Shown piece by piece: positions 2,159-15,169 of a stretch of DNA of 22,059 nt; position 1 is the first letter of the stretch, and each line of letters begins with the position of its first letter. The notes beneath the pieces are model-generated. The model had not been told where the DNA came from, made no database searches, and saw nothing but the letters and a program-made list of their open reading frames with translations. This DNA comes from a virus, in IMG/VR virus record IMGVR_UViG_3300038701_002856, positions 1 to 22,059 of that record; one strand, written 5' to 3'. The position numbers and the translations under genes were made by a program.

Positions 2159-3454
2159 TTACCAAATTATCATCGTAGCATCTTGTTCCAATTCGAACCA
2201 ATATCTCATCATTATGCTATCCCAATCATCTGGTGATCTACCTAACTTCTCTTTTATTAGATCTTTAGGTATGATAGCCATTTTACCATCTTTATCTATA
2301 TCTTTTTGTTTAACCTGTTCTAACTCTTCAGATATAGTGTTTATAATATCATCTATCTCACAATTCTCTATAACTTCTCTTAATTCTATTTTCTTAGCCA
2401 TTTTAATAGAACATTGTGATTTTAAGTTATCGTAGTTTTCTCCATTTAAAGGCCTTGAGTTATTAACAAAACCTTGACATTCTAAATAATCTACTACACC
2501 GCCTCCTACTCCATCTTCATCAACTATAACTCTAGATCTTGGTATTCCGTAAGATGATTCTAAACCAGTAATTATATCAACTATCTCATTGACTAAACTA
2601 GTAGCCATTTCTAATCGCTTTATACAAACCCATCCATGCCAAACTCTTATAACTGTTTTGTCTTTACCTTTTCTTGCTACATCACACGTTATATATTTAT
2701 AGCCTTCGGGTTTTACATGTACACTATTAAAGTAGTCTTTTATAGCGTCATAACTAATTAAAGCAGATGGATCATTATCATATTCCCAATTACCGTAATA
2801 AAGTCTTTCTTTACTATTCTTATCTAGTTCTAATAAAGATTGTATATAAGATGGTGGTAAATGAGGGTTGTCAGTAGGAAGTGCTTGTATGAACCTCCTG
2901 TTAGTCTTTATAGTTTGATCTTTATAAGGTTTATAAAAAAGTCTATATACCCATCCTTTTGAAGGGTTACATGTACCAAGTAATTTAGGTATTAAGTCAT
3001 ACTCTTTAAGTTTATAACGAATTCTAGATTTAACTATTTGCCAAGCTTTATGGGTTATCTGATTACACTCATCTATGAAAGCACCAGTTATCTCTAAAGA
3101 TCCTAAACTATCATAATTAGGATCAGAAGGATAATGAAATAGATCCTTTAATATTATTTCACTACCATTAACATGTGTAATTATCCCTGACTGATTATTA
3201 AGATGAAATTGATTAGATATACCTAATTCAGAACAAGTGTCCAAGAAAGTGTTTAAAGTAGTTTCTTTTAAAGCTTTTAATTTGCTTCTTCCTAGTAACC
3301 ACCTTGTTCCTGGATAATTCTGACAACACTCTATTAACCAAAGAACTCCTAATTTAGATTTACCACCACCAGCAGCTCCTCCATATACTAATTCATTGGT
3401 TTCTTTATCCTTTAAAAAATATACAGCATGTTCTTGCTTAAGAAGTAGATTCAT
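2159..3454 (-). CDS. terL: terminase large subunit
   Basis: 431 residues, a normal length. This is the packaging motor ATPase and headful or cos nuclease that loads DNA into the prohead. The ATPase domain shows Walker A GGAAGGGKS (25-33), Walker B GAFIDE (124-129) and the coupling motif TCNP (161-164). The C-terminal RNase H-like nuclease domain shows ITCDVARKGKDKT with Asp258, then VIVDEDGVGGG with acidic residues near 312-314, and a late SPDDWDSIM segment that probably supplies the third metal ligand. The start at 3454 overlaps the small subunit gene by 17 bases, which fits translational coupling. Confidence 0.96.
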   Translation of the reverse strand: MNLLLKQEHAVYFLKDKETNELVYGGAAGGGKSKLGVLWLIECCQNYPGTRWLLGRSKLKALKETTLNTFLDTCSELGISNQFHLNNQSGIITHVNGSEIILKDLFHYPSDPNYDSLGSLEITGAFIDECNQITHKAWQIVKSRIRYKLKEYDLIPKLLGTCNPSKGWVYRLFYKPYKDQTIKTNRRFIQALPTDNPHLPPSYIQSLLELDKNSKERLYYGNWEYDNDPSALISYDAIKDYFNSVHVKPEGYKYITCDVARKGKDKTVIRVWHGWVCIKRLEMATSLVNEIVDIITGLESSYGIPRSRVIVDEDGVGGGVVDYLECQGFVNNSRPLNGENYDNLKSQCSIKMAKKIELREVIENCEIDDIINTISEELEQVKQKDIDKDGKMAIIPKDLIKEKLGRSPDDWDSIMMRYWFELEQDATMIIW

Positions 3455-4464: not shown

Positions 4465-4770
4465 TTATTTTGTTTTAAATTTTATATCAATGTCTTTATT
4501 ATTTTCTAACACTTGGTTTTCTATTGATCCAACTTGTATCATTATATCAGCCATGTTATAACAAAAAGTAGCTAATGCATATTCATCATAACCAATATGA
4601 TCTCCTTCGTAATCTTGAGAAGATAATTCTCCATTCATAGCTTCAATAGCAATTTTATCTCTTAAAGATAAATTGTTATTGTTTTTGTTACTATCTTGAA
4701 TAGCTGTTTTAACTCCCCATAAAGCCATACATATTGAAGCTGAACATAATGATATAATAAATTCTAACAT
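4465..4770 (-). CDS. phage protein with N-terminal membrane anchor
   Basis: Start taken at ATG 4770 (MLEFIISLCSASICMALWG), 101 residues, preceded by the A-rich leader TAAAAATTAAAATT; a longer ORF would start inside the structured region upstream. One N-terminal hydrophobic segment (about 3-19). The middle LRDKIAIEAMNGELSSQD and later ALATFCYNMADIMIQ resemble a frequent small phage protein pattern (LRDxIAxxAMxG...AxxxYxxADAML) of unknown role. The membrane anchor on this pattern is unusual. Confidence 0.65.
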   Translation of the reverse strand: MLEFIISLCSASICMALWGVKTAIQDSNKNNNNLSLRDKIAIEAMNGELSSQDYEGDHIGYDEYALATFCYNMADIMIQVGSIENQVLENNKDIDIKFKTK

Positions 4771-4787
4771 AATTTTAATTTTTAATA

Positions 4788-4962
4788 AACTACCTGTCCA
4801 TTTCCAAGTGGAACACATTTCCACGGGCTCGAACCGTGTTGAGCCATACTCATGTGTCTTACAATAAACATCATCATCTTGGCATGATTATGATAGCATC
4901 CTTCTATAACTAATATATAGACAATTACTATTTATACCACTGTTTATCTTCAGCAGGTAGTT
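4788..4962 (-). ncRNA. structured non-coding region closed by a 9-bp repeat
   Basis: The 200-base gap between the coiled-coil gene and the gene at 4465-4770 has an inverted repeat, AACTACCTG (4788-4796) with CAGGTAGTT (4954-4962), enclosing several hairpins. At 4813-4857 the minus strand can fold as a three-way junction: ACACAT/ATGTGT, GAG/CTC, and a CACGG-TTCGAGC-CCGTG arm with the look of a tRNA T arm. GTGGAA/TTCCAC (4808-4824) is a mutually exclusive 6-bp hairpin. Another hairpin, ATCAT/ATGAT, lies near 4872-4897. No full tRNA can be drawn: no acceptor partner is found. It could be a regulatory leader, a processing site or a decayed tRNA. Confidence 0.4.
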
Positions 4963-4975
4963 CATGTTTTACAAA

Positions 4976-5251
4976 TTACTTTTCAGGGAAAAGTTCTTTA
5001 ATTACTTTTTCAAGATTTTTGATAGCTAATTTTCTACCTTCAATCTCATCCATTTTATCAAGAATATCTTGAGATGACAAGGTTTGGTTTGATTTTAGCT
5101 CTACTAGCTCTCGCTCGTTTTGTTTTAGAACTCGTTTTGTTTCCCTTAAGTCTGCTTCTAGTTGCAACTTGTTGTCTTCGACTGCATATTGTAGGTTTTG
5201 CTCGTCGATTTGTTCTTGACTCTGTGTTCTCAACTCTCTGTAAGTTTTCAT
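4976..5251 (-). CDS. coiled-coil protein overlapping its neighbour
   Basis: 91 residues, almost wholly predicted coiled coil: Glu, Lys, Leu and Gln heptads from about 8 to 88 with no Cys. The ATG at 5251 follows the leader AAACAAACAAATAAAAAAG, one of the best matches to this phage's A-rich translation leader, which supports it as a real gene although it overlaps the end of the 5058-6128 frame by 194 bases. After its TAA stop the same frame continues for 16 codons as FVKHELPAEDKQWYK before TAG. The role could be structural or scaffold-like; that is a guess from composition only. Confidence 0.65.
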   Translation of the reverse strand: MKTYRELRTQSQEQIDEQNLQYAVEDNKLQLEADLRETKRVLKQNERELVELKSNQTLSSQDILDKMDEIEGRKLAIKNLEKVIKELFPEK

Positions 5252-6128
5252 CTTCTTTTTTATTTGTTTGTTTTGTGCTCTTACTCGAAGGGGAAGAGCT
5301 TTCCCTTAAATCTTTTAATACAGTGAAATCAGTAACTTGATAACCTAATTTATCTCCTTTATTATTTATAATAATAAACTCATTATCTAATGATGAATAG
5401 TAAGCTTCAAAAATATCTCCAACATTAATATTATTATACCATCCTTCATTTATGCATTTAACAACGTGTGTCGGGTTTTCTATTTGATAATCATAAGTTA
5501 ATTCGAAATCTTCGTATTTGTTATATAACTCGTTTTTTTCCTCGTGTAACATTATACCAGTATTATCATAAGGGTATGCGTCAATATAACCGTTATCCCA
5601 TTGTACTCTATATCTAAGATACGTCGCTCCAGTTAAATCTATAATAGTACCCAATGTTTGTCTACCTTCAGAATCTATATCCTGATTACCGTATTCCCAC
5701 TTAATGTTTCTCTTAACTCTGTCTCCGATTTTTAGTTCTTTGTTGTTATTATAATTGTTACAAAGTTCTTTAAGAGCACTAACTACATTTGTTAAAGCTT
5801 CAAAATCATTATCCTTAGAACTAGGCCAATATCCTCCTCTTTCTTTATAACCATAATGTCTACTACAAAATTCTTCAGGATTTTTTATATTTAACATACT
5901 GAATATTTTCCTATTATTGTTATGCAATGACGCTTCTAAATAGTTATCTCTAACAAAATAGTTTACAATATCATCTCCTATTTTGAAGCTTACTTTATCA
6001 TTTAATTTTAAAATTTCCATAGTTTCAGATTTAACTCTAATTATATCTACAAATCCCATTGTATCGAATGTTTTACACTTTTTAATACTAGGTTTAATAC
6101 CAAAATCTATACTTATACTATTACACAT
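5058..6128 (-). CDS. unknown protein with SH3-like repeats and basic tail
   Basis: 356 residues. Around 50-100 is a mixed region. KIGDRVKRN (about 133-141) through LGTIIDLTGATYLRYRVQWDNG (158-179, split here by meaning only) looks like an SH3/KOW-type beta barrel, as in proteins that hold RNA or protein tails; a second GDIF-type strand lies near 240. The last 80 residues are rich in Ser, Lys, Arg and Thr with no clear fold and are encoded where the coiled-coil gene runs in another frame. The ATG at 6128 begins two bases after the tRNA-like gene's end; internal ATGs (residues 24, 37) are alternatives. No family recognised. Confidence 0.6.
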   Translation of the reverse strand: MCNSISIDFGIKPSIKKCKTFDTMGFVDIIRVKSETMEILKLNDKVSFKIGDDIVNYFVRDNYLEASLHNNNRKIFSMLNIKNPEEFCSRHYGYKERGGYWPSSKDNDFEALTNVVSALKELCNNYNNNKELKIGDRVKRNIKWEYGNQDIDSEGRQTLGTIIDLTGATYLRYRVQWDNGYIDAYPYDNTGIMLHEEKNELYNKYEDFELTYDYQIENPTHVVKCINEGWYNNINVGDIFEAYYSSLDNEFIIINNKGDKLGYQVTDFTVLKDLRESSSPSSKSTKQTNKKEDENLQRVENTESRTNRRAKPTICSRRQQVATRSRLKGNKTSSKTKRARASRAKIKPNLVISRYS

Positions 6129-7331: not shown

Positions 7332-8228
7332 TTATGAATTATTTAAAACTTCAAAATCTCTTAAATCACCCCAATCTCTATAACTATCAATAGAGTTAGC
7401 TTGTAACTTAGGTTTATCCGCATCTCCTGCTACGCTAAAGAACCAATCTCCTTTATTACCAAATTTTAACATGTAATCAAAACCTTTAGAATCGTAAGAA
7501 GATTCACAGTCAAATTCTTTAGGTATATAATCACTTTTAGAGTTAAATGGCTTATGATAAGAAAAGAACTCAGCTTTACCTAATTCTCCTTGTTGTACAT
7601 TCCTAGCAACTGCTACAGCTTTAAATTCAGTATCAGGCAATGCTATTTGCAAAGCTCTAGTTAATACACCTGTAGATATAACTGTCCACATAACTTTTGG
7701 CTTTTCTTTATCTTTAAAAAAATCATGAACACATCTAACAGCATTAGCTGTTACTAATTCATGATCCAAACCTAAAGGGACAAAAAAAGCTCCGGTTTTT
7801 TCAGCATACTTTTTTGCTATTCTATTAGCATTTGGCATAGCTGCTATTCTAACAAATAAAGGTTTAGCACCATATTCTATACATAGTCTTTGATGTTCAC
7901 TAGCTTCTTTACTAGAAGGCATAACTAATGTTAATTTTTTACCATACTTTTTACAAAGATACGATAAACTAATACCAGCAAAACCTCTTCTAGGTTGCAC
8001 GTAGACTATTTCTTCTTCTTTAACAGATTTTATCAACATCTCACCAAACCTAGCTTTAGCACCTACTGGATTTGATACTGATTCATCTATAACATTGAAT
8101 CCATTAACGTCTTTAACTACAAAGTCTTTAAATGAACTTTTAAAATCTTTAGTTAATTCAAGGTAATAATTAAGATCTTTTAATCTCAAATCCTTGTTAT
8201 CTTCTCCTATTTGTTTATTTAGAAACAT
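7332..8228 (-). CDS. TrpB-like (fold type II) PLP-dependent enzyme
   Basis: 298 residues. Fold type II PLP enzymes rework amino acids through an aldimine. Here Lys58 in NPVGAKARFGEM is the likely PLP lysine. RGFAGISLSYLCKKYGKK (81-98) takes the place of the GNHGxAxAxxAxxxG helix. EYGAKPLFV follows as the usual GAxV strand. STG at 185-187 matches the phosphate-binding SGG-type loop. It is not a plain cysteine synthase or threonine synthase. Its ORF overlaps the thymine-pyrophosphorylase-like gene by 14 bases, so it probably acts on the amino-acid or amine group that enzyme attaches to DNA thymine, or makes its substrate. That role is inferred. Confidence 0.65.
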   Translation of the reverse strand: MFLNKQIGEDNKDLRLKDLNYYLELTKDFKSSFKDFVVKDVNGFNVIDESVSNPVGAKARFGEMLIKSVKEEEIVYVQPRRGFAGISLSYLCKKYGKKLTLVMPSSKEASEHQRLCIEYGAKPLFVRIAAMPNANRIAKKYAEKTGAFFVPLGLDHELVTANAVRCVHDFFKDKEKPKVMWTVISTGVLTRALQIALPDTEFKAVAVARNVQQGELGKAEFFSYHKPFNSKSDYIPKEFDCESSYDSKGFDYMLKFGNKGDWFFSVAGDADKPKLQANSIDSYRDWGDLRDFEVLNNS

Positions 8229-9126
8229 TATTGTAATATTTAACTCCTTTATTCATTTTAATATGATCTTCTGATTGAAAGTTATCTAGATACCTTATAA
8301 AGTCACAAGCTACATCTTCCATATCATAAGGTTTACTATTATTACCAGTTAAATCACATAAATATCTTATTGCTTCATCAGACTTCATGTCAGGTAATAT
8401 CAACTTTAAACACTTTTTAGCATTGGTACCCAAGTACACGTCAGAATCTTGATCTACATAATTAGGATAATATTCAGCCATATCCATAGCAAAAGCAGTT
8501 AATACGAAATTCTGTCTTTTATAACCATTTTCAATTAACCAATTATTTCCTTCATCAACTACCATTTTGATTGGGATTAAACCATATTTATAATCTATAA
8601 TAAATTCCCATAAGTGAGTTACTAAATCTATAGCTCTGAATTGAATAAAATTCCTTAATCCTCCTTTTATCATTGGAAGTAAATAACCTTTAACATCACA
8701 AAATTTATTTTCAGGTATATTTTCTATCCATTCTTGATAATTGTATCTTTCTTTAATAAACTCTTCTATTACCCAGAAATTACCAAAACCATGGCTACCA
8801 TAAGGAGTGTCATTAGTCTTAGGGATGTAATTAATACCTGATCCACATAATCTAAATAGATAGCATAGAGCTACAAAATTAAAATGAGATATATTTTCAT
8901 GAACATTTTTAAAATAAACCCCATTACCTTTAGGATCTTTATCTACACAATGTATAGCCTCTAATAACGAACTAAAAGCAGCGTATCTTCTATTAACAAC
9001 ATCATATATTGGGACATTCCAAATTAAATCATCATTAATATCTTCTTTTGTCCATATACCATTTTGATACTTTCTTTCTTGCATCATCTCGGCCTTATTA
9101 TAATACTGTACAAATTGGTCTATCAT
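8215..9126 (-). CDS. aGPT pyrophosphorylase-like base-modification enzyme
   Basis: 303 residues. The family (alpha-glutamyl/putrescinyl thymine pyrophosphorylases, helical DNA-glycosylase-like fold) replaces the diphosphate of 5-(diphosphooxymethyl)uracil in DNA with an amino acid or amine. Supporting motifs, in family order: ERKYQNGIWTKEDI then NVPIYDVVNRR (17-47), like RxxxxxGxPWTxDPIL..NVYRxxDR; QFRAIDLVTHL (162-172), like the FxAYxxxxDL helix; GTNAKKCL (233-240), in place of GPGxxRGL; and DMEDVACDFIRYLD (268-281), like the DIEHxLCExDKY end. Several usual residues are changed, so this is a divergent member or relative. Flanked by the SGNH-like and PLP genes. Confidence 0.55.
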   Translation of the reverse strand: MIDQFVQYYNKAEMMQERKYQNGIWTKEDINDDLIWNVPIYDVVNRRYAAFSSLLEAIHCVDKDPKGNGVYFKNVHENISHFNFVALCYLFRLCGSGINYIPKTNDTPYGSHGFGNFWVIEEFIKERYNYQEWIENIPENKFCDVKGYLLPMIKGGLRNFIQFRAIDLVTHLWEFIIDYKYGLIPIKMVVDEGNNWLIENGYKRQNFVLTAFAMDMAEYYPNYVDQDSDVYLGTNAKKCLKLILPDMKSDEAIRYLCDLTGNNSKPYDMEDVACDFIRYLDNFQSEDHIKMNKGVKYYNNVSK

Positions 9127-9127
9127 A

Positions 9128-10084
9128 TTAAAATAGTTTTTGTTGTTTTGTTTGTAAAATATCTTCTATAAACATATAAGAAGTAGGTCTTAAATGAACT
9201 GATCTACGTGATTCCATTTCGTTAAATGATAATTCATCTTTATTGACAAGATCCCATTCTAAATAGTTAAAACCATTTCTATTACAAATCTCTTTTAACC
9301 TATTATTAAAAAATTTAACATAAGAAGATCTTTCTTCTTTAGAACCAAAAAACTTTTCTCCTTTATATAATCCTGATTTAGGAAGTTCTCTTGATTCATC
9401 TTCTATAGGTAATAATGAAACTAGACTAATGTTTTTTAAGTTTAATTCTATAAGTTGCTTTTCTAATTCTAATATTAATTGACTAATAGTATTCATACTA
9501 TCAAATCTATGAACATGGAATCTTATATCAATATTACCAGCATAAAAAATTAAATCTCTAGTAGATTCTTTAATATATGATTTCAAACCTTTTTTTAAGA
9601 ATCCATGTAAAGTTTTTCCATTATTTACATCTATAGAATACCCAGGCTTAAATACTGATACACTATGACTATCTCCTAATATTAGTTTATCATTATATTC
9701 GTTTGTTTTAAAAACTCTTGGTATTCTAAATTTAATATCAACAAAATCTTTAAGTTCTTTTCTTTTAATACACATATCATTGTAGTCTATTTTTTTATTT
9801 ATAGAATACAAGTACCCTTTAAAAGAGCTTAATTTCATTAATCTAGTTTTTACTTTATCATCTACACCTCCAAAGAAATTATATTTACCTTTTTCGTAGT
9901 TTATCCCTTCAGAAATAAACAACGTATGATATTTATCCCAATCGTCTTTCTCAGTCAAAACATCAACATTTAAACCATAAGAAATTGTTAACATTGATTT
10001 TAAACACAAAGTCCAACCTCCATTATGAGATGATAAACTAGTTACAGGATTTGATATAATACCTATTATTCCTATTTTTTTCAT
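9128..10084 (-). CDS. SGNH-hydrolase-like protein of the modification cassette
   Basis: 318 residues. LILGDSHSVSVFKPG puts a GDSx block at 137-140 (Ser139 as nucleophile); AGNIDIRFH (182-190) fits the GxN block; SVHLRP with His297 fits the catalytic His. The usual Asp three residues before the His is Arg here, so the triad may be incomplete. The first 135 residues form a separate domain with a Rossmann-like start (KKIGIIGIISN) and a GGW at 22-24, resembling the N-terminus of GT-B glycosyltransferases. It could add or remove an acyl group on the modified base, or bind it. The start follows the tRNA-like gene; the stop is one base before the next ATG. Confidence 0.5.
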   Translation of the reverse strand: MKKIGIIGIISNPVTSLSSHNGGWTLCLKSMLTISYGLNVDVLTEKDDWDKYHTLFISEGINYEKGKYNFFGGVDDKVKTRLMKLSSFKGYLYSINKKIDYNDMCIKRKELKDFVDIKFRIPRVFKTNEYNDKLILGDSHSVSVFKPGYSIDVNNGKTLHGFLKKGLKSYIKESTRDLIFYAGNIDIRFHVHRFDSMNTISQLILELEKQLIELNLKNISLVSLLPIEDESRELPKSGLYKGEKFFGSKEERSSYVKFFNNRLKEICNRNGFNYLEWDLVNKDELSFNEMESRRSVHLRPTSYMFIEDILQTKQQKLF

Positions 10085-10100
10085 GTTAATTTAATTTTGA

Positions 10101-10171
10101 TCGCCAGGTGAGACTCGAACTCACGACCTTTCGCATAAAGCACTCAGTTCTACCTACTGAACTACTGGCGA
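10101..10171 (-). tRNA. tRNA-like gene with non-canonical anticodon arm
   Basis: Minus strand. Acceptor TCGCCAG/CTGGCGA, 7 perfect pairs; D arm GTTC-AGTAGGTA-GAAC; T arm GTGAG-TTCGAGT-CTCAC, all perfect. Between D and T arms are 22 bases, about the normal number, but no 5-pair stem with a 7-base loop can be drawn; the best hairpin is CTTT-ATGCG-AAAG. Counting by position would place UUA at 34-36, an ochre-reading anticodon, but the flanking stem would not pair, so I do not assign an amino acid. It lies 16 bases before the SGNH-like gene and could be a decayed tRNA or a tRNA-like processing signal. Confidence 0.6.
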
Positions 10172-10197
10172 TTCCCTCTAACAGTCTCCGTCGACCT

Positions 10198-10998
10198 TTA
10201 TTTTAATCCTTTTACAACTGCAGTACCAGCGCCAAAGACATTGTTATTACCATAAGGACTTTTTCCTTTTTTAGCCCATATCTCTTGAATCTCTAACCTT
10301 TTTAATTCAAGCATTTTAGGCTGTGACATAATATCCTTTGTTTTAGCATCGTATTGAGCTGCTTCATAATTACCTTTAGATTCGGCAACTTTAGCTTTTG
10401 CAAGAGCTATTTTTTCAGCTTCTTTTTTCTTAGCTAATTCGTTCTTACCTAATTGTACAGCTGTTTGCTCAGCTAATTTAGCCACACTTTTAGGTATATC
10501 AACATCTGTCATTTGAACCCTCGCAAATAGCACGTAAAACTCAGGGAGTTCTTTGCTTAAAATTTCAGTTATTTTAGATTCTGCTTCTTGACGTTTTGTA
10601 ATATTTAACTCTACAGCTGAATACTGAGGAACTACTTCTTTTCCTGCTGATTTAACAGTCTTAATTATCTTAGTCTCAACATCTGTTATCTTAGTGTGAA
10701 GTAGATTTAACCTATCCGGATCAAGTTTATAATCCAAAGATAATTCTACAGTTGTTACCATGTTATTCTTATCGTTAAAATCATACTTTTGTACTATAGT
10801 TTTCTCTCGAACATCATAATCTTCAGTTTCATCAAAAATCCAATGAAAACCATAATGTATACCTTCTGAGTATATTTTTTCCATATTGGTTTTTCCTCCC
10901 CATGATACTTCTACAGCTTTATGTCCTGGAGGTACAGATGTACAAGATGATAAAATGTGAATAATTGATAGTAATAATATTATTTTTTTCATTTTCAT
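10198..10998 (-). CDS. SPFH/band 7 (prohibitin-like) lipoprotein
   Basis: 266 residues. The N-terminus MKMKKIILLLSIIHILSSC is a lipoprotein signal with Cys19 in LSSC. The next ~130 residues (VPPGHKAVEVSWGG, TTVELSLDYKLDP) match SPFH/band 7 proteins, which form ring-like oligomers at membranes. From about 165 to 235 a long Ala/Glu/Lys helix follows, as in prohibitins and HflK/C. The lipid anchor in place of the usual membrane helix suggests the periplasmic face of a membrane. Phages of Bacteroidota often carry such genes; the role is unknown, perhaps membrane protection or HflKC-like modulation of a protease. Between the 39-residue peptide and the tRNA-like gene. Confidence 0.8.
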   Translation of the reverse strand: MKMKKIILLLSIIHILSSCTSVPPGHKAVEVSWGGKTNMEKIYSEGIHYGFHWIFDETEDYDVREKTIVQKYDFNDKNNMVTTVELSLDYKLDPDRLNLLHTKITDVETKIIKTVKSAGKEVVPQYSAVELNITKRQEAESKITEILSKELPEFYVLFARVQMTDVDIPKSVAKLAEQTAVQLGKNELAKKKEAEKIALAKAKVAESKGNYEAAQYDAKTKDIMSQPKMLELKRLEIQEIWAKKGKSPYGNNNVFGAGTAVVKGLK

Positions 10999-11003
10999 TT
11001 TTT

Positions 11004-11123
11004 TTAATTTTTATTTGATTTGTTTTCGGTATTGTTTTTATCTCTGTTCCTAAGCCACTCCCAGCTCATCCAGAATCCCCAAACAACAATAGAGGATGCG
11101 ATTATTATTAAAGCGCTTTTCAT
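11004..11123 (-). CDS. 39-residue single-pass membrane peptide
   Basis: MKSALIIIASSIVVWGFWMS begins a single membrane segment (about 4-22), followed by a polar tail WLRNRDKNNTENKSNKN. The ATG abuts the stop codon of the preceding coiled-coil gene (TAAATG), and the next gene starts 6 bases after its stop with an A-rich leader, so it sits as a normal operon gene. It may work with the SPFH lipoprotein next to it. Function unknown. Confidence 0.7.
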   Translation of the reverse strand: MKSALIIIASSIVVWGFWMSWEWLRNRDKNNTENKSNKN

Positions 11124-12254
11124 TTACTTATTTATGTGATCCAAGATTTTGTCTATTAAAATTGAAACGTCGATGTACATTTTTTTATTGGTATCAGAAT
11201 CAAACGTATATTTACTTTTTAAAGCTTCTAAATCTTGCTTCAAATCGATAACTTTTTCAGCATCGCCTTTTTCGAGTTCTGCTTGAATACGTGCTTCTTC
11301 TTCACGTTTAGCCTTATCTTCTGCTTCTTGCTTTTCTCTCAATTCACGTTCAGCTTTCTCTTTTTCTTTGCGCTCAGCTTCAAGCTTTGCTTCCATTTCC
11401 TCACGTTCCTTTTTCGCTTGTTCCTCACGCTCAATTCTTTCTTTTTCAATGCGCTCGTTTTCGATAGCTTCTAATCTGTCACGTTCTTCTTTTTCCTTCT
11501 TTAAACGCTCGTTTTCGGCCTTTATAGCAGCTTGCTCCTTTTCGTGATTATCTTTCAAACCAAAAAGAGTCAATAAAATCTTGTTATAATCATCTTCGGT
11601 GATTTCACCAAAATCTAATCCAAGATAATTATCAGGCATAAATTGCCTTAAACCTTCACTATTTATTTTAGCTAATCTACTAACTCTTAAGTTTGATTTC
11701 TTAAGTTCCAATTCTTCTTGCTCTTTTCTAAGCCGTTCTTGCTCAATTCGCTCTTGATGCTCTTTTTTCTTAGTAGCTAAATATGATTGATAAACATCTT
11801 CTGGCATGGATTTTAAATCCATATTGCAAGCTTCCTCGAAGTATACAGTTAATTCTTCAACACGGGCTTTTTGTAGGGCCTCTAGCCGTTCTTGTTCTTT
11901 CCTTTCAGCGTATTGCTCCATTTCCAAAAGATCGGCCTCCATACGTTCATTTACGGCGATTTCTTTGCGCTTGATAGCGTCGACAAATTGACCACCTTTC
12001 AAAAAGAAATCTTTAGCCGTTTTGTGCCAGACATTTATTCCCTTAGTTCTGTTCTTTTGAACCAATAGGCGAAGCTCACGAGCTACTTTTGGAGTCTCTT
12101 CATCTTCCAAATCAAGTTTTATAACTTCTGAAAACCTTTTTTCAAGCTCAGATCGTTCTTCAACTATTTGAGGTAGATTACCCGTTAACTCTTTAGCTTG
12201 TTTTTTTTCAATCCCATATTCTTTAGGATCAATTACCTGTAGATTGTTTTCCAT
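11124..12254 (-). CDS. coiled-coil protein, DUF1351-like N-terminus
   Basis: 376 residues. The N-terminal 110 residues (ARELRLLVQKNRTKGINVWH around 59-78, then KDFFLKGGQFVDAIKR) look like a phage domain often annotated DUF1351. Then come two long Glu/Lys/Arg helices (about 115-190 and 245-345) with TolA-like repeats of ERxEREEQAKKEREE, and a short globular end. Base composition is richer in G and C than its neighbours because of Glu/Arg codons. Phage proteins of this type usually lie near recombination and replication genes; the biochemical role is unknown. It has its own promoter, P3, and is the first gene of that unit. Confidence 0.75.
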   Translation of the reverse strand: MENNLQVIDPKEYGIEKKQAKELTGNLPQIVEERSELEKRFSEVIKLDLEDEETPKVARELRLLVQKNRTKGINVWHKTAKDFFLKGGQFVDAIKRKEIAVNERMEADLLEMEQYAERKEQERLEALQKARVEELTVYFEEACNMDLKSMPEDVYQSYLATKKKEHQERIEQERLRKEQEELELKKSNLRVSRLAKINSEGLRQFMPDNYLGLDFGEITEDDYNKILLTLFGLKDNHEKEQAAIKAENERLKKEKEERDRLEAIENERIEKERIEREEQAKKEREEMEAKLEAERKEKEKAERELREKQEAEDKAKREEEARIQAELEKGDAEKVIDLKQDLEALKSKYTFDSDTNKKMYIDVSILIDKILDHINK

Positions 12255-12261
12255 TTTGTTC

Positions 12262-12317
12262 TAGTTTAATTACACTACAATATTAACACTTAATTTTTTA
12301 AAATTAAAAGTTTTCTT
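12262..12317 (-). promoter_or_regulatory. phage promoter P3
   Basis: Minus strand: GAAAACTTTTAATTTTAA, 12 bases, TAATATTG (12285-12278), then TGTAATTAAAC. This is the most diverged of the five copies, but the distance from the -7-like box to TGTAAT is the same 11 bases as in the others. Confidence 0.65.
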
Positions 12318-12334
12318 TGCTTTTTTTTGATGAA

Positions 12335-13288
12335 TTACTGAATTTTTATCCATTCAACAAAAGCCATAGACTTCCATTTTATCTTTATTCTTGGTTTAAG
12401 GTTGATCCTTCCTTTAGAAAAGTCTCTAGCATAATTAATATCCATTTTAGCCCTTCTATCTGAAGACTCCTCAATTATATTTGTAGCTTGTTTTTCTAAT
12501 TCTATTTCGAATTCCTCTGTAAAAGATATTTTGTTTTCTTTTTTTAAGAAATCATAAAGAATACTCATTAAGTGATCATCTGGTTCTATTTTTACATCTC
12601 CATTAGCTTTATATGTTATACATTTTGATTCCTTGTAATTAGATATTAACTCATCTATAATTGGATAACTTTCTTTTTTCATTAAATCATCCTTGTTTTC
12701 ATATGGTTGTTCGAAGATATTTATCTGACTATTTTCAGGTATATTTCTTCTACTTTCTTTATTAGGATATTCAAATATATTACACATTTGCCTAACTCTA
12801 TCAGCTACTACATCTCCATATAATTCCTTGAACTCATCTGGTGTTAAATTAGTACTTATAAAGGTTAGTTTTTTAGATTTTAAAAACAAATCATATCTAG
12901 CCATTAATAGATCGTTAATAACCCATTTTTTTTGACCATAATGTCCTGATTTATCTTCTTGCCCAACATCATCTATAATTCTATGATGTTTATATTTGTA
13001 TCCTTTTATTCCTATCTCTCCCTCTGAAGAATAAATAGAACTAATATCATTAGCTGAAGCATAATGTATAGATGGTAAAGAATGTATTAACATGTATTTT
13101 TGAATAGATTGTAATAAAGTAGTCTTCCCTACACCGACAGGTCCATATATGAAAAAACCTTTATTAATATCAAAAGCTCCATCTTGTCTATTCAACCATT
13201 TATGAACAGCTCTAAATAAATCCATTTCACTATCCTTGTAGTCTATAGATTTATTTGTCAACTTTTTTATGACCTCTAAAATATTCAT
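12335..13288 (-). CDS. DnaC-like replicative helicase loader (AAA+)
   Basis: 317 residues. AAA+ ATPase of the DnaC/DnaI/IstB group that loads the replicative helicase at the origin. Walker A GPVGVGKT (49-56), Walker B RIIDDVG (103-109), sensor 1 STN (145-147) and an arginine-finger-like DRVRQM (163-168) are all present and in order. The C-terminal 130 residues are unlike host DnaC and may bind the phage's own partner. It overlaps the thymidylate-synthase-like gene by ATGA. The partner helicase is not in the window. Confidence 0.88.
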   Translation of the reverse strand: MNILEVIKKLTNKSIDYKDSEMDLFRAVHKWLNRQDGAFDINKGFFIYGPVGVGKTTLLQSIQKYMLIHSLPSIHYASANDISSIYSSEGEIGIKGYKYKHHRIIDDVGQEDKSGHYGQKKWVINDLLMARYDLFLKSKKLTFISTNLTPDEFKELYGDVVADRVRQMCNIFEYPNKESRRNIPENSQINIFEQPYENKDDLMKKESYPIIDELISNYKESKCITYKANGDVKIEPDDHLMSILYDFLKKENKISFTEEFEIELEKQATNIIEESSDRRAKMDINYARDFSKGRINLKPRIKIKWKSMAFVEWIKIQ

Positions 13289-13917
13289 ATCTTATTCAAG
13301 TAATCGTTATATAAATGCATATTGCTAGCAAAATGATAATACCAACCTACTGTTAAATTTAGTTCTTCAGCTACCATTTTTTGTAACTCAGAAAAACAAT
13401 ACTGATCATTGCAGAATCCAAACCATAAATCGTTTGACCTCATATTTACAGTCATGCATAATTCATCGTTTATGATTTGGAAATGAATAGAATTAGTACA
13501 AGGAGTGTCGTATCCATAGGTAGTTATCTCTTTACCATCGTAAATACTTAACACAGCTTGCCTTGTGTTTTTATCTATTTTTAATATATCAATTATATTT
13601 CTTAATTGATTATTTCTATTCCATTGCCAACCATAATTAGATCTAACATGTCCTTTATCATCCATGTGGTTTTTCCAAATAGGAGCATGTTTTGAAATTT
13701 CAACAGCAGAAGGATCTCCTGATAAATACCAATCCCATTCTCTTTCAGCATATTTTTTACTCCATTTCCTATAATCAATATTTATACTGTTTTCTAAAGG
13801 TTCTTCCAAATAAAACCCTATATTGAATAAAGTTTTAGTATCCCTAAATTCACTCCCTTCTAAGCTTATTAATTCATATAACTTATCAAAAGCTTCAGAT
13901 GCATTTTTAAATTTCAT
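13285..13917 (-). CDS. thymidylate synthase / dUMP hydroxymethylase family
   Basis: 210 residues, shorter than host ThyA (about 264). The nucleophile is Cys140 in DTPCTNSIHFQ, where ThyA has PPCH; NMRSNDLWFGFCND (158-171) holds the phosphate-binding Arg160 and the base-reading Asn/Asp; NMHLY (199-203) matches DAHIY. The TPCT and FGFCNDQY changes are those seen in phage enzymes annotated as thymidylate synthase or deoxypyrimidine hydroxymethylase. With a dCMP deaminase just upstream, the substrate is probably dUMP and the product dTMP or 5-hydroxymethyl-dUMP; sequence alone does not decide which. It overlaps both neighbours, so all three are co-translated. Confidence 0.8.
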   Translation of the reverse strand: MKFKNASEAFDKLYELISLEGSEFRDTKTLFNIGFYLEEPLENSINIDYRKWSKKYAEREWDWYLSGDPSAVEISKHAPIWKNHMDDKGHVRSNYGWQWNRNNQLRNIIDILKIDKNTRQAVLSIYDGKEITTYGYDTPCTNSIHFQIINDELCMTVNMRSNDLWFGFCNDQYCFSELQKMVAEELNLTVGWYYHFASNMHLYNDYLNKI

Positions 13918-14302
13918 TTATTTCTATTTTAGCTTTTTGTAACAATTCTAAACCTTTTGTTTCTATATATTTTTCTCTATAGAAAACTCTTTTTATACCA
14001 GATTGTATTATAAGTTTAGCACATTCTATACATGGAGACATGGTAACATATAAATCAGAATTTAAAGAAGATTCATTTGATTTAGCACATTTTGATATAC
14101 AATTGGATTCCGCGTGCAACACTTCTTCTTTTGTAACATTATCTTCTTCACAAGAATTTTCAAAACCAGAAGGAGTGCCGTTGTATCCAATAGATATGAT
14201 CCTATTATCTTTAACTAAGATAGCACCTACTTTTTTTCTTTTAGAATAAGATGATTCAGATATTACACTAGCAATATCCATGTATTGATGATTAGTTACC
14301 AT
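13907..14302 (-). CDS. dCMP deaminase
   Basis: 131 residues, a normal length. Zinc-dependent conversion of dCMP to dUMP. The zinc and proton-shuttle motif HAE is at 63-65 (VLHAESNC), and PCxxC at 90-94 (SPCIECAKL) gives the two Cys ligands. NGTPSGFENSCEE (41-53) matches the substrate loop of dCMP deaminases. It supplies dUMP to the adjacent thymidylate synthase/hydroxymethylase-type enzyme, whose gene overlaps it by 11 bases, and its own start overlaps the MazG-type gene's stop by one base. Confidence 0.93.
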   Translation of the reverse strand: MVTNHQYMDIASVISESSYSKRKKVGAILVKDNRIISIGYNGTPSGFENSCEEDNVTKEEVLHAESNCISKCAKSNESSLNSDLYVTMSPCIECAKLIIQSGIKRVFYREKYIETKGLELLQKAKIEINEI

Positions 14303-14895
14303 TACTTTATATCTTTTACTCTAACATAAGCTTTTCCTCCTTGCTTTAAAGATGGTTTAGCTATTAAGTGTAAATCATCTTTATCCGTAAAGACTTTATC
14401 TCCTAATATTATGTCATGATTCTTCAAAAAAGAATTGATATCAGTAAACACACAAGGTAAGTTATAATATCCGTTTTTATGGAGATCTCCTTTAACTTGC
14501 TTTCTAGTTATCTTCTCGTCTTTTTTAAACGTCCCGTTTTCCATTTTACCTGTCCTAGATTTTATGACATCATAAGCAGATTCTATACATGTTTCTATAC
14601 TTATCCAATCTTCATTAGTCATTTCCATCATAGAACCACCGTCTCCAGCTACATCTTCATAATAAGTCTCTGATCTATTTTCGTCGAAATACTTATTTCC
14701 AAGAAAAGCTAAATTAGTCAACACTACAGCGATATCACCTATAGCATCGATAAACTCTGGTTCATCTTTCTTTAGAATAGCTTTAGCTAATTCGCCTGTT
14801 TCTTCTATGAGTTTAGCAAATTGAGTCTTTACATCACCCATATCGTAAATACCTCTTTTGCTTGCCCAATCTCTAATTAATTCGAATTTTTCCAT
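14302..14895 (-). CDS. MazG-type nucleotide pyrophosphohydrolase
   Basis: Start taken at ATG 14895 (MEKFELIRDWASKRG), 197 residues: it lies one base after the preceding stop and is preceded by the leader ATCAAAACAACAAATAAA; a longer frame would begin inside the upstream gene. The MazG motif EExxE (31-35) and FIDAIGD (48-54) give the magnesium-binding acidic residues. MazG-type enzymes cut NTPs or dNTPs to NMPs, here perhaps dUTP or dCTP to feed the deaminase and hydroxymethylase steps or clear unwanted nucleotides. The C-terminal 90 residues (KVFTDKDDLHLIAKPS) are an extra domain of unknown role. Confidence 0.82.
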   Translation of the reverse strand: MEKFELIRDWASKRGIYDMGDVKTQFAKLIEETGELAKAILKKDEPEFIDAIGDIAVVLTNLAFLGNKYFDENRSETYYEDVAGDGGSMMEMTNEDWISIETCIESAYDVIKSRTGKMENGTFKKDEKITRKQVKGDLHKNGYYNLPCVFTDINSFLKNHDIILGDKVFTDKDDLHLIAKPSLKQGGKAYVRVKDIK

Positions 14896-14896
14896 T

Positions 14897-15169
14897 TTAT
14901 TTGTTGTTTTGATTTTCAATATAATTATTCATACTACCTAAGTAAGCTACAGCATCTAACAGATTGTCCTCTTTATGTGAGTAGCTCTCTCTTGACATTT
15001 TAAGTGCAACCATGCACTTATATAGATCTACAGCTGTTATGTCCTTAGAAGTCATGAGAGATGCTAATTTAGCAGCTTTTTCCATTCCATCCTCTATCGG
15101 GCCGTACATTCTCTCTTTTTCTTGAGATCTTTTGTTAATTATTTTATCAGCTTCATTTAAAATATTCAT
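14897..15169 (-). CDS. DUF6378-like phage protein
   Basis: 90 residues. ERMYGPIEDGMEKAAKL near 19-35, then DITAVDLYKCMVALKMSRES (43-62) and NLLDAVAYLGSMNNY (69-83) match small phage proteins recalled as DUF6378, all-alpha and of unknown role, with some likeness to MazG-type helical folds (acidic residues spaced across helices). It lies directly before the MazG-type gene, and its last codons form part of that gene's A-rich translation leader. Confidence 0.75.
   Translation of the reverse strand: MNILNEADKIINKRSQEKERMYGPIEDGMEKAAKLASLMTSKDITAVDLYKCMVALKMSRESYSHKEDNLLDAVAYLGSMNNYIENQNNK

Follow-up and report, generated by a model that had tools for sequence, protein, structure and literature searches.

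The question raised by this locus is which DNA base its genes act upon, and by what chemistry. IMG/VR virus record IMGVR_UViG_3300038701_002856 is a 22-kb viral contig, and its positions 1 to 22,059 (hereafter the window, meaning the whole stretch of DNA that was analyzed) carry a cassette that combines a thymidylate synthase (TS)-fold enzyme and nucleotide-pool genes with a helical protein, an SGNH hydrolase-fold protein, and a pyridoxal phosphate (PLP)-dependent enzyme. A preliminary description of this DNA had read these genes as a thymidine hypermodification pathway that starts from 5-hydroxymethyldeoxyuridine (5-hmdU). Our analysis indicates that the cassette is, on balance, probably a phage cytosine-hypermodification system; cytosine is very likely the base modified, and it is quite likely that the hypermodification takes place at the DNA level through the SGNH, helical, and PLP enzymes. 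All genes named in the preliminary description are intact open reading frames on the minus strand, and the cassette has a further member that it did not mention, the DUF6378 gene. The features of the window cassette are as follows.

7332-8228, minus strand: PLP-dependent enzyme of the PALP superfamily, fold type II (Pfam PALP, 37.1 bits; cut-off, 35)
8215-9126, minus strand: helical aGPT/AADT-like protein with the fold of amino-acid:DNA transferases and the HMUDK helical domain (AlphaFold2 [AF2] model and structure matches; no Pfam family)
9128-10084, minus strand: SGNH hydrolase-fold protein with an N-terminal Rossmann-like part (AF2 model, GDSL esterase match, conservation, and fusions)
13285-13917, minus strand: TS-fold enzyme, predicted dCMP 5-hydroxymethylase (Pfam Thymidylat_synt, 82.8 bits; D177 and T147 in Escherichia coli numbering)
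13907-14302, minus strand: dCMP deaminase, converting dCMP to dUMP (Pfam dCMP_cyt_deam_1, 84.3 bits; phrog_174, E 2e-52)
14302-14919, minus strand: MazG-type nucleotide pyrophosphohydrolase, candidate dCTPase (Pfam MazG, 25.2 bits; cut-off, 22; phrog_1992, E 2e-30; synteny)
14897-15169, minus strand: DUF6378 protein (Pfam DUF6378, 51.3 bits; synteny)

The PALP, TS, deaminase, MazG, and DUF6378 proteins of the window all pass their Pfam cut-offs, and no Pfam family scored above cut-off for the helical and SGNH proteins. The helical protein is encoded in 213 IMG/VR stretches (38 in an earlier scan), and linkage was counted over 91 nonredundant IMG/VR loci that encode it. A one-strand order of DUF6378-SGNH-helical-PLP-TS-MazG recurs among these loci, with median gaps of -4, -7, -14, +1, and -4 bp along it. 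Neighbors of the helical gene include the PLP gene at 89 loci, the SGNH gene at 85 (with 2 more in which it is fused), the TS gene at 81, the DUF6378 gene at 80, where it is the first gene of the cassette, and the MazG gene at 69. The six loci that have no separate SGNH gene comprise the two fusions and four loci that start at the helical gene. In the window, the helical and PLP genes overlap by 14 bp and the cassette is in two parts, about 3 kb apart. The TS gene usually lies directly after the PLP gene in relatives and is therefore counted as a cassette member; given the recurrent order and short gaps across the 91 loci, its linkage is far closer than one would judge from the window by itself. 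The gene set listed in the preliminary description (SGNH, helical, PLP, TS-like, deaminase, and MazG) is thus present, and its linkage goes far beyond chance. A tblastn search of 50,697 phage records with the helical protein gave no match, nor did a search of prokaryote contigs from 84,980 species, and because of the latter result the family looks to be restricted to viruses. At 10 loci, a protein of 186 to 195 amino acids with a weak YunG-like match is encoded between the PLP and TS genes (for example, L015:3978-4565).

The identity of the base is addressed most directly by the TS-like enzyme. Its best relatives among PDB structures are the CMP hydroxymethylase MilA and the dCMP hydroxymethylase of T4. 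The position that governs the choice of pyrimidine, equivalent to residue 177 of E. coli ThyA, is Asp in the window enzyme and in all 79 cassette TS sequences, each of which also has the catalytic Cys (C146), and it is likewise Asp in gp42 of T4 and of 44RR; in ThyA itself and the SPO1 gp29, ViI, PaMx11, YuA, and nACB2 enzymes it is Asn. At position 147, 78 of the 79 cassette sequences have Thr, against His or Asn in the uridine enzymes compared; the enzymes of 5-hmdU phages carry N177/N147 where the cassette carries D177/T147. In the TS phylogeny, cytosine-type and uridine-type enzymes are separated by a single split (support, 89/87) with the cassette enzymes on the cytosine side, while some branches are long and inner placements are unsure. 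The same two positions, 177 and 147, were the best discriminators of modified-cytosine contigs in a metagenomic association study (PMC8670742). Among isolated phages, the closest relative of the window enzyme belongs to Bacteroides phage BF503P2 (49%), and its gene lies near one for a carbamoyltransferase of a class that has been shown to act on 5-hydroxymethylcytosine (hmC) (PMC8670742). The residue signature, the split in the tree, the MilA and T4 relatives, and the published discriminators together make cytosine the most likely base, and the case for the cytosine step is strong. The cassette TS is accordingly a predicted source of 5-hydroxymethylcytosine and not of 5-hmdU, and the thymidine assignment of the preliminary description does not hold against either the active-site residues or the tree, which places the enzyme away from those of 5-hmdU phages. 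That the group added is hydroxymethyl rather than methyl is something we infer from the downstream enzymes.

How the hydroxymethylated base might be elaborated is suggested by the folds of the remaining proteins. The AF2 model of the helical protein (pLDDT 86.9) found its best solved match in PUGT (8z2n; Z 10.6, root mean square deviation 3.8, 201 residues; VIA-align), the 5-phosphomethyl-dU glycinyltransferase of PaMx11. In the BFVD library, its named viral matches were amino acid:DNA transferases, including A0A6J5L8T5 ("Amino acid:DNA transferase"; E 5.8e-13, TM 0.77), and the 5-hmdU DNA kinase of SP10. DNA glycosylases and queuine salvage proteins scored below PUGT, with Z values of 7 to 9. 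The helical protein had no match in Pfam, PHROGs, NCBIfam, or PDB sequences, PF18723 and PF18724 did not match any of 29 family members plus 4 divergent members, and hhalign comparison of the window family with the HMUDK_hel and ADDT alignments gave no signal. By eye, E-D-V-A-C-D-F-I-R-Y (residues 270 to 279) is closer to E-H-T-L-C-E-F-D-K-Y of the HMUDK_hel protein gp50 than to V-E-T-I-L-C-K-W-K-S-H of the PUGT protein gp46; scans for near relatives of PaMx11 gp50 and gp46 yielded few sequences. As modeled, the helical protein has the fold of the phage family formed by amino-acid:DNA transferases and the helical part of 5-hmdU kinases. The earlier aGPT call therefore stands as to fold, with PUGT the best match in the structural comparison that had been named as able to overturn it, and finds no counterpart in Pfam or profile matches.

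The SGNH protein was also modeled (AF2; pLDDT 91.6), and its residues 130 to 307 match GDSL esterases and acetyltransferases (Z 13.1; PatB, 11.3). SGNH blocks I, II, III, and V (Ser, Gly, Asn, and His) are all kept: Ser139, Asn184, and His297 are present in all 88 sequences compared, including those of 44RR, IME13, and PTm1, and G156 in 87 of them. Two loci from different metagenomes encode natural SGNH-helical fusions of 639 amino acids (L089:4423-6342 and L096:904-2823). A comparable arrangement occurs in Aeromonas phage 44RR2.8t, whose ORF233c (795 amino acids; L045:6013-8400) joins an SGNH domain of the window family to a C-terminal HMUDK_hel-like domain; the latter matches HMUDK_hel in Pfam with an E value of 0.0036, which is below the cut-off, and in hhalign over 244 columns (P 2e-6; probability, 89%), and the C-terminal region recurs in 19 Aeromonas phage records. 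Genes for gp42 and gp56 are present in 44RR, and those annotated in the first 50 kb of this phage include the T4-like genes a-gt.4 and a-gt.5 and neither a-gt nor b-gt. As an enzyme of an isolated phage, ORF233c is a candidate for modifying hmC, and no study of it was found in the literature searched. Residues 1 to 129 of the window SGNH protein (9698-10084) show a Rossmann-like pattern of their own that was hardly covered by the fold search.

In the known thymidine systems, the base is phosphorylated in DNA. A kinase was looked for among the cassette-bearing relatives, all of which are contig fragments. No kinase recurs in the cassette neighborhoods. PF18748 had no match in the 20 longest relatives and PF18751 had none in 13 long relatives, where PF13671 gave only a weak match below the cut-off; the 5-hmdU DNA kinase that the preliminary description had proposed to search for was thus not found above cut-off in the cassette or in these fragments. 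The 5-hmdU DNA kinase of SP10 (a 637-amino-acid protein in BFVD) is known to combine a kinase domain with a helical one. In Microbacterium phage PrincePhergus, genes for a P-loop kinase and an HMUDK_hel protein are adjacent (L125:1368-2841 and 4546-5358) and the TS has D177, and it is possible that this pair is a 5-hmC DNA kinase, though the Pfam family name says 5-hmdU. Because the SGNH-helical fusions of the two metagenomic loci and of ORF233c parallel the joining of kinase and helical parts in SP10 and PrincePhergus, the SGNH protein occupies, by analogy, the place held by the P-loop kinase in 5-hmdU DNA kinases.

The PLP enzyme had been labeled TrpB-like. It is a member of the PALP superfamily, and its nearest PDB relative is a cysteine synthase, with a weak E value of 1e-4; the cysteine synthase family score is far from reached (TIGR01136, 26.8 bits; cut-off, 344). 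The Schiff-base Lys58 is invariant in 25 PLP-enzyme sequences and the phosphate loop is kept, while an alignment with CysK and phage PALPs shows PR-x-G in the window enzyme in place of TSGNT, the loop that binds the substrate carboxylate in CysK. Phage relatives of this PALP lie within or beside genes for ParB-DNA methylases. One such methylase, gp1 of Erythrobacter phage R6L (L052:1-2423), carries the PALP as an insertion between its DPFAGGS and CPPYG motifs, which is possibly another PLP-dependent DNA modification; a PAPS-reductase-like gene is located nearby. In Microcystis phage Mae-JY30, the PALP follows two genes annotated as ParB/sulfiredoxin, and a DNA methylase model matches one of the two. 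Such placement in or beside methylase genes fits repeated use of this PALP group in DNA modification. No PALP of the window family was found in the Aeromonas phages that have the SGNH-helical pair, and the window-type SGNH and helical proteins were not found in phages that have a PALP of the window family; each thus occurs where the other was not found, and SGNH-helical and PALP look like two separable modules.

These observations can be arranged in a hypothetical pathway. The TS-fold enzyme would convert dCMP to 5-hydroxymethyl-dCMP, and MazG, perhaps together with DUF6378, for which a role in nucleotide-pool control is possible, would drain dCTP so that the modified cytosine is built into DNA, with the dCMP deaminase feeding dTMP synthesis. 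The helical aGPT-fold protein may then bind the 5-hmC base in DNA and present it to its SGNH partner, which may place an acyl-type group on the hydroxymethyl oxygen or otherwise activate that oxygen. The PALP, a cysteine synthase relative with a changed substrate loop, would finally add or remodel an amino-acid-like group on the base. The order of the SGNH-helical and PALP steps and the final chemistry are inferred, and the acyl step itself is tentative. In its fullest form, the SGNH and helical proteins would be a kinase-independent 5-hmC-DNA acyltransferase in which a base ester replaces the activating phosphate, cytosine then gains an amino-acid adduct through the PALP, and Aeromonas T4-like phages have a simpler, SGNH-only version; we offer this scheme as one possibility and hold it with some doubt. 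Support extends to the broader idea of the preliminary description, that of DNA hypermodification in which an SGNH protein takes part and a PLP enzyme does the tailoring.

Other explanations may be considered for the same genes. A thymidine pathway, in which 5-hmdU is made, enters DNA, is phosphorylated there, and is exchanged for an amino acid through an aGPT enzyme, would account for the aGPT/AADT fold of the helical protein, and TS, dCMP deaminase, and pyrophosphohydrolase genes are also found in ViI and PaMx11. However, the cassette and the 5-hmdU phages differ at both discriminating TS positions and fall on opposite sides of the tree, and no kinase was found in the long relatives, so we consider this pathway unlikely. 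It is less improbable that the helical protein is a true amino-acid:DNA transferase acting on hmC phosphorylated by an unseen kinase, with the SGNH and PALP proteins merely trimming the adduct. The AADT-type proteins closest to it among named BFVD relatives and the transferase PUGT as best PDB match are in keeping with such a role, as is PrincePhergus, which couples a P-loop kinase and HMUDK_hel with a D177 TS; yet no kinase is among the genes kept across relatives, the Pfam searches of the 20 and 13 long records included, and the fusion partner of the helical domain is SGNH rather than a kinase. We therefore treat a transferase with an unseen kinase as conceivable but doubtful.

The nearness of the PALP to cysteine synthase and the resemblance of the SGNH fold to that of common esterases would also suit a cassette in which cytosine is hydroxymethylated and these two proteins are metabolic or host-takeover enzymes (supplying cysteine, for example) that travel along. 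The near-complete linkage with overlapping genes makes this improbable, as do the fusion of SGNH to a DNA-modifying fold in two lineages, the loss of the CysK substrate loop from the PALP, and the embedding of a PALP in a DNA methylase elsewhere. Least probable of all is a helix-hairpin-helix DNA glycosylase acting in base excision: AGOG glycosylases reached Z 8.6 and top ranks in the Foldseek PDB search with the helical protein, but PUGT ranked higher, the viral library matches are AADT and HMUDK proteins, and the gene is linked to TS, SGNH, and PALP. The cytosine-hypermodification reading that we prefer has points weighing against it as well. It is predicted from genes and models, the modified base included, and a kinase could be encoded elsewhere in genomes that are represented by fragments. 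D177 fits a dCMP methylase as well as a dCMP hydroxymethylase. The connection of the helical protein to AADT and HMUDK_hel is a structural one only, lacking a Pfam or profile-profile match, and, helical proteins being concerned, a Z of 10.6 is middling. An SGNH protein may act as a hydrolase instead of a transferase, and the usual SGNH Asp three residues before the His is absent here, position 294 being Gln in 84 of 88 sequences and Arg or Lys in the others. The PALP, for its part, could make a small molecule instead.

Hypermodified pyrimidines made via TS-fold enzymes are already known. The thymidine systems of PaMx11, M6, ViI, and SP10 (dUMP hydroxymethylase, 5-hmdU DNA kinase with HMUDK_hel, ADDT/PUGT, and PLP enzymes) share with the cassette a TS-fold hydroxymethylase, the helical AADT/HMUDK fold, a PLP enzyme, and nucleotide-pool genes, whereas the cassette has a cytosine-type TS (D177), an SGNH partner with no kinase found, a fold-type II PALP, and a helical protein that neither the ADDT nor the HMUDK_hel model of Pfam matches. 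The hmC pathway of T4 (gp42, gp56, and glucosyltransferases) has in common the dCMP hydroxymethylase signature, a dCMP deaminase, and a pool-cleaning pyrophosphatase, but the cassette is without a glucosyltransferase and has SGNH, helical, and PALP proteins instead. The same three stand in the carbamoyltransferase's stead when the cassette is compared with the 5-hmC carbamoyltransferase systems (MetaGPA, eLife 2021, PMC8670742; BF503P2), with which it shares the TS relative and MazG/PRA-PH and dCMP deaminase partners. ORF233c of 44RR resembles it in combining this SGNH family with a helical domain of like fold in a phage with gp42, and differs in its helical subfamily and in that no PALP of the window family was found there. 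An amino-acid-bearing cytosine in phage DNA, as predicted here, is also the product of the CmoA/CmoX/CmoY carboxymethylcytosine-glycine system (Nat Commun 2025, PMC12783734), although that scheme uses postreplicative carboxy-S-adenosylmethionine (Cx-SAM) chemistry and an ATP-dependent ligase, with no TS, SGNH, or PLP enzyme (PMC12783734). The literature searched, which missed the main thymidine-hypermodification papers, contained no description of an SGNH-aGPT pairing, nor of a pathway on cytosine that combines an aGPT-fold protein and a PALP with SGNH in the kinase's position.

Most of the elaborate amino-acid chemistry known from phage bases is that of thymine, the described cytosine cases being sugars, carbamoyl groups, and the carboxymethyl-glycine route. 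If our reading is correct, a marine and widespread cassette would extend what is known of DNA chemistry and of the evasion of restriction and Cas nucleases, and, should the acyltransferase proposal also be true, both the DNA base and the chemistry of its activation would be previously undescribed. It also provides a prediction for the hmC modifier of Aeromonas phages such as 44RR, in which the gp42 region has no annotated glucosyltransferase.

Between the two parts of the window cassette lie a helicase-loader gene, a gene for an SPFH/Band 7 lipoprotein (10198-10998), and a tRNA-Lys (ttt; 10099-10171). PADLOC reported no system in the window. The terminase large subunit of the window (2159-3454) is 66% identical to that of Cellulophaga phage phi10:1 and 60% identical to that of Flavobacterium phage 11b, and these identities suggest a flavobacterial host for the phage.

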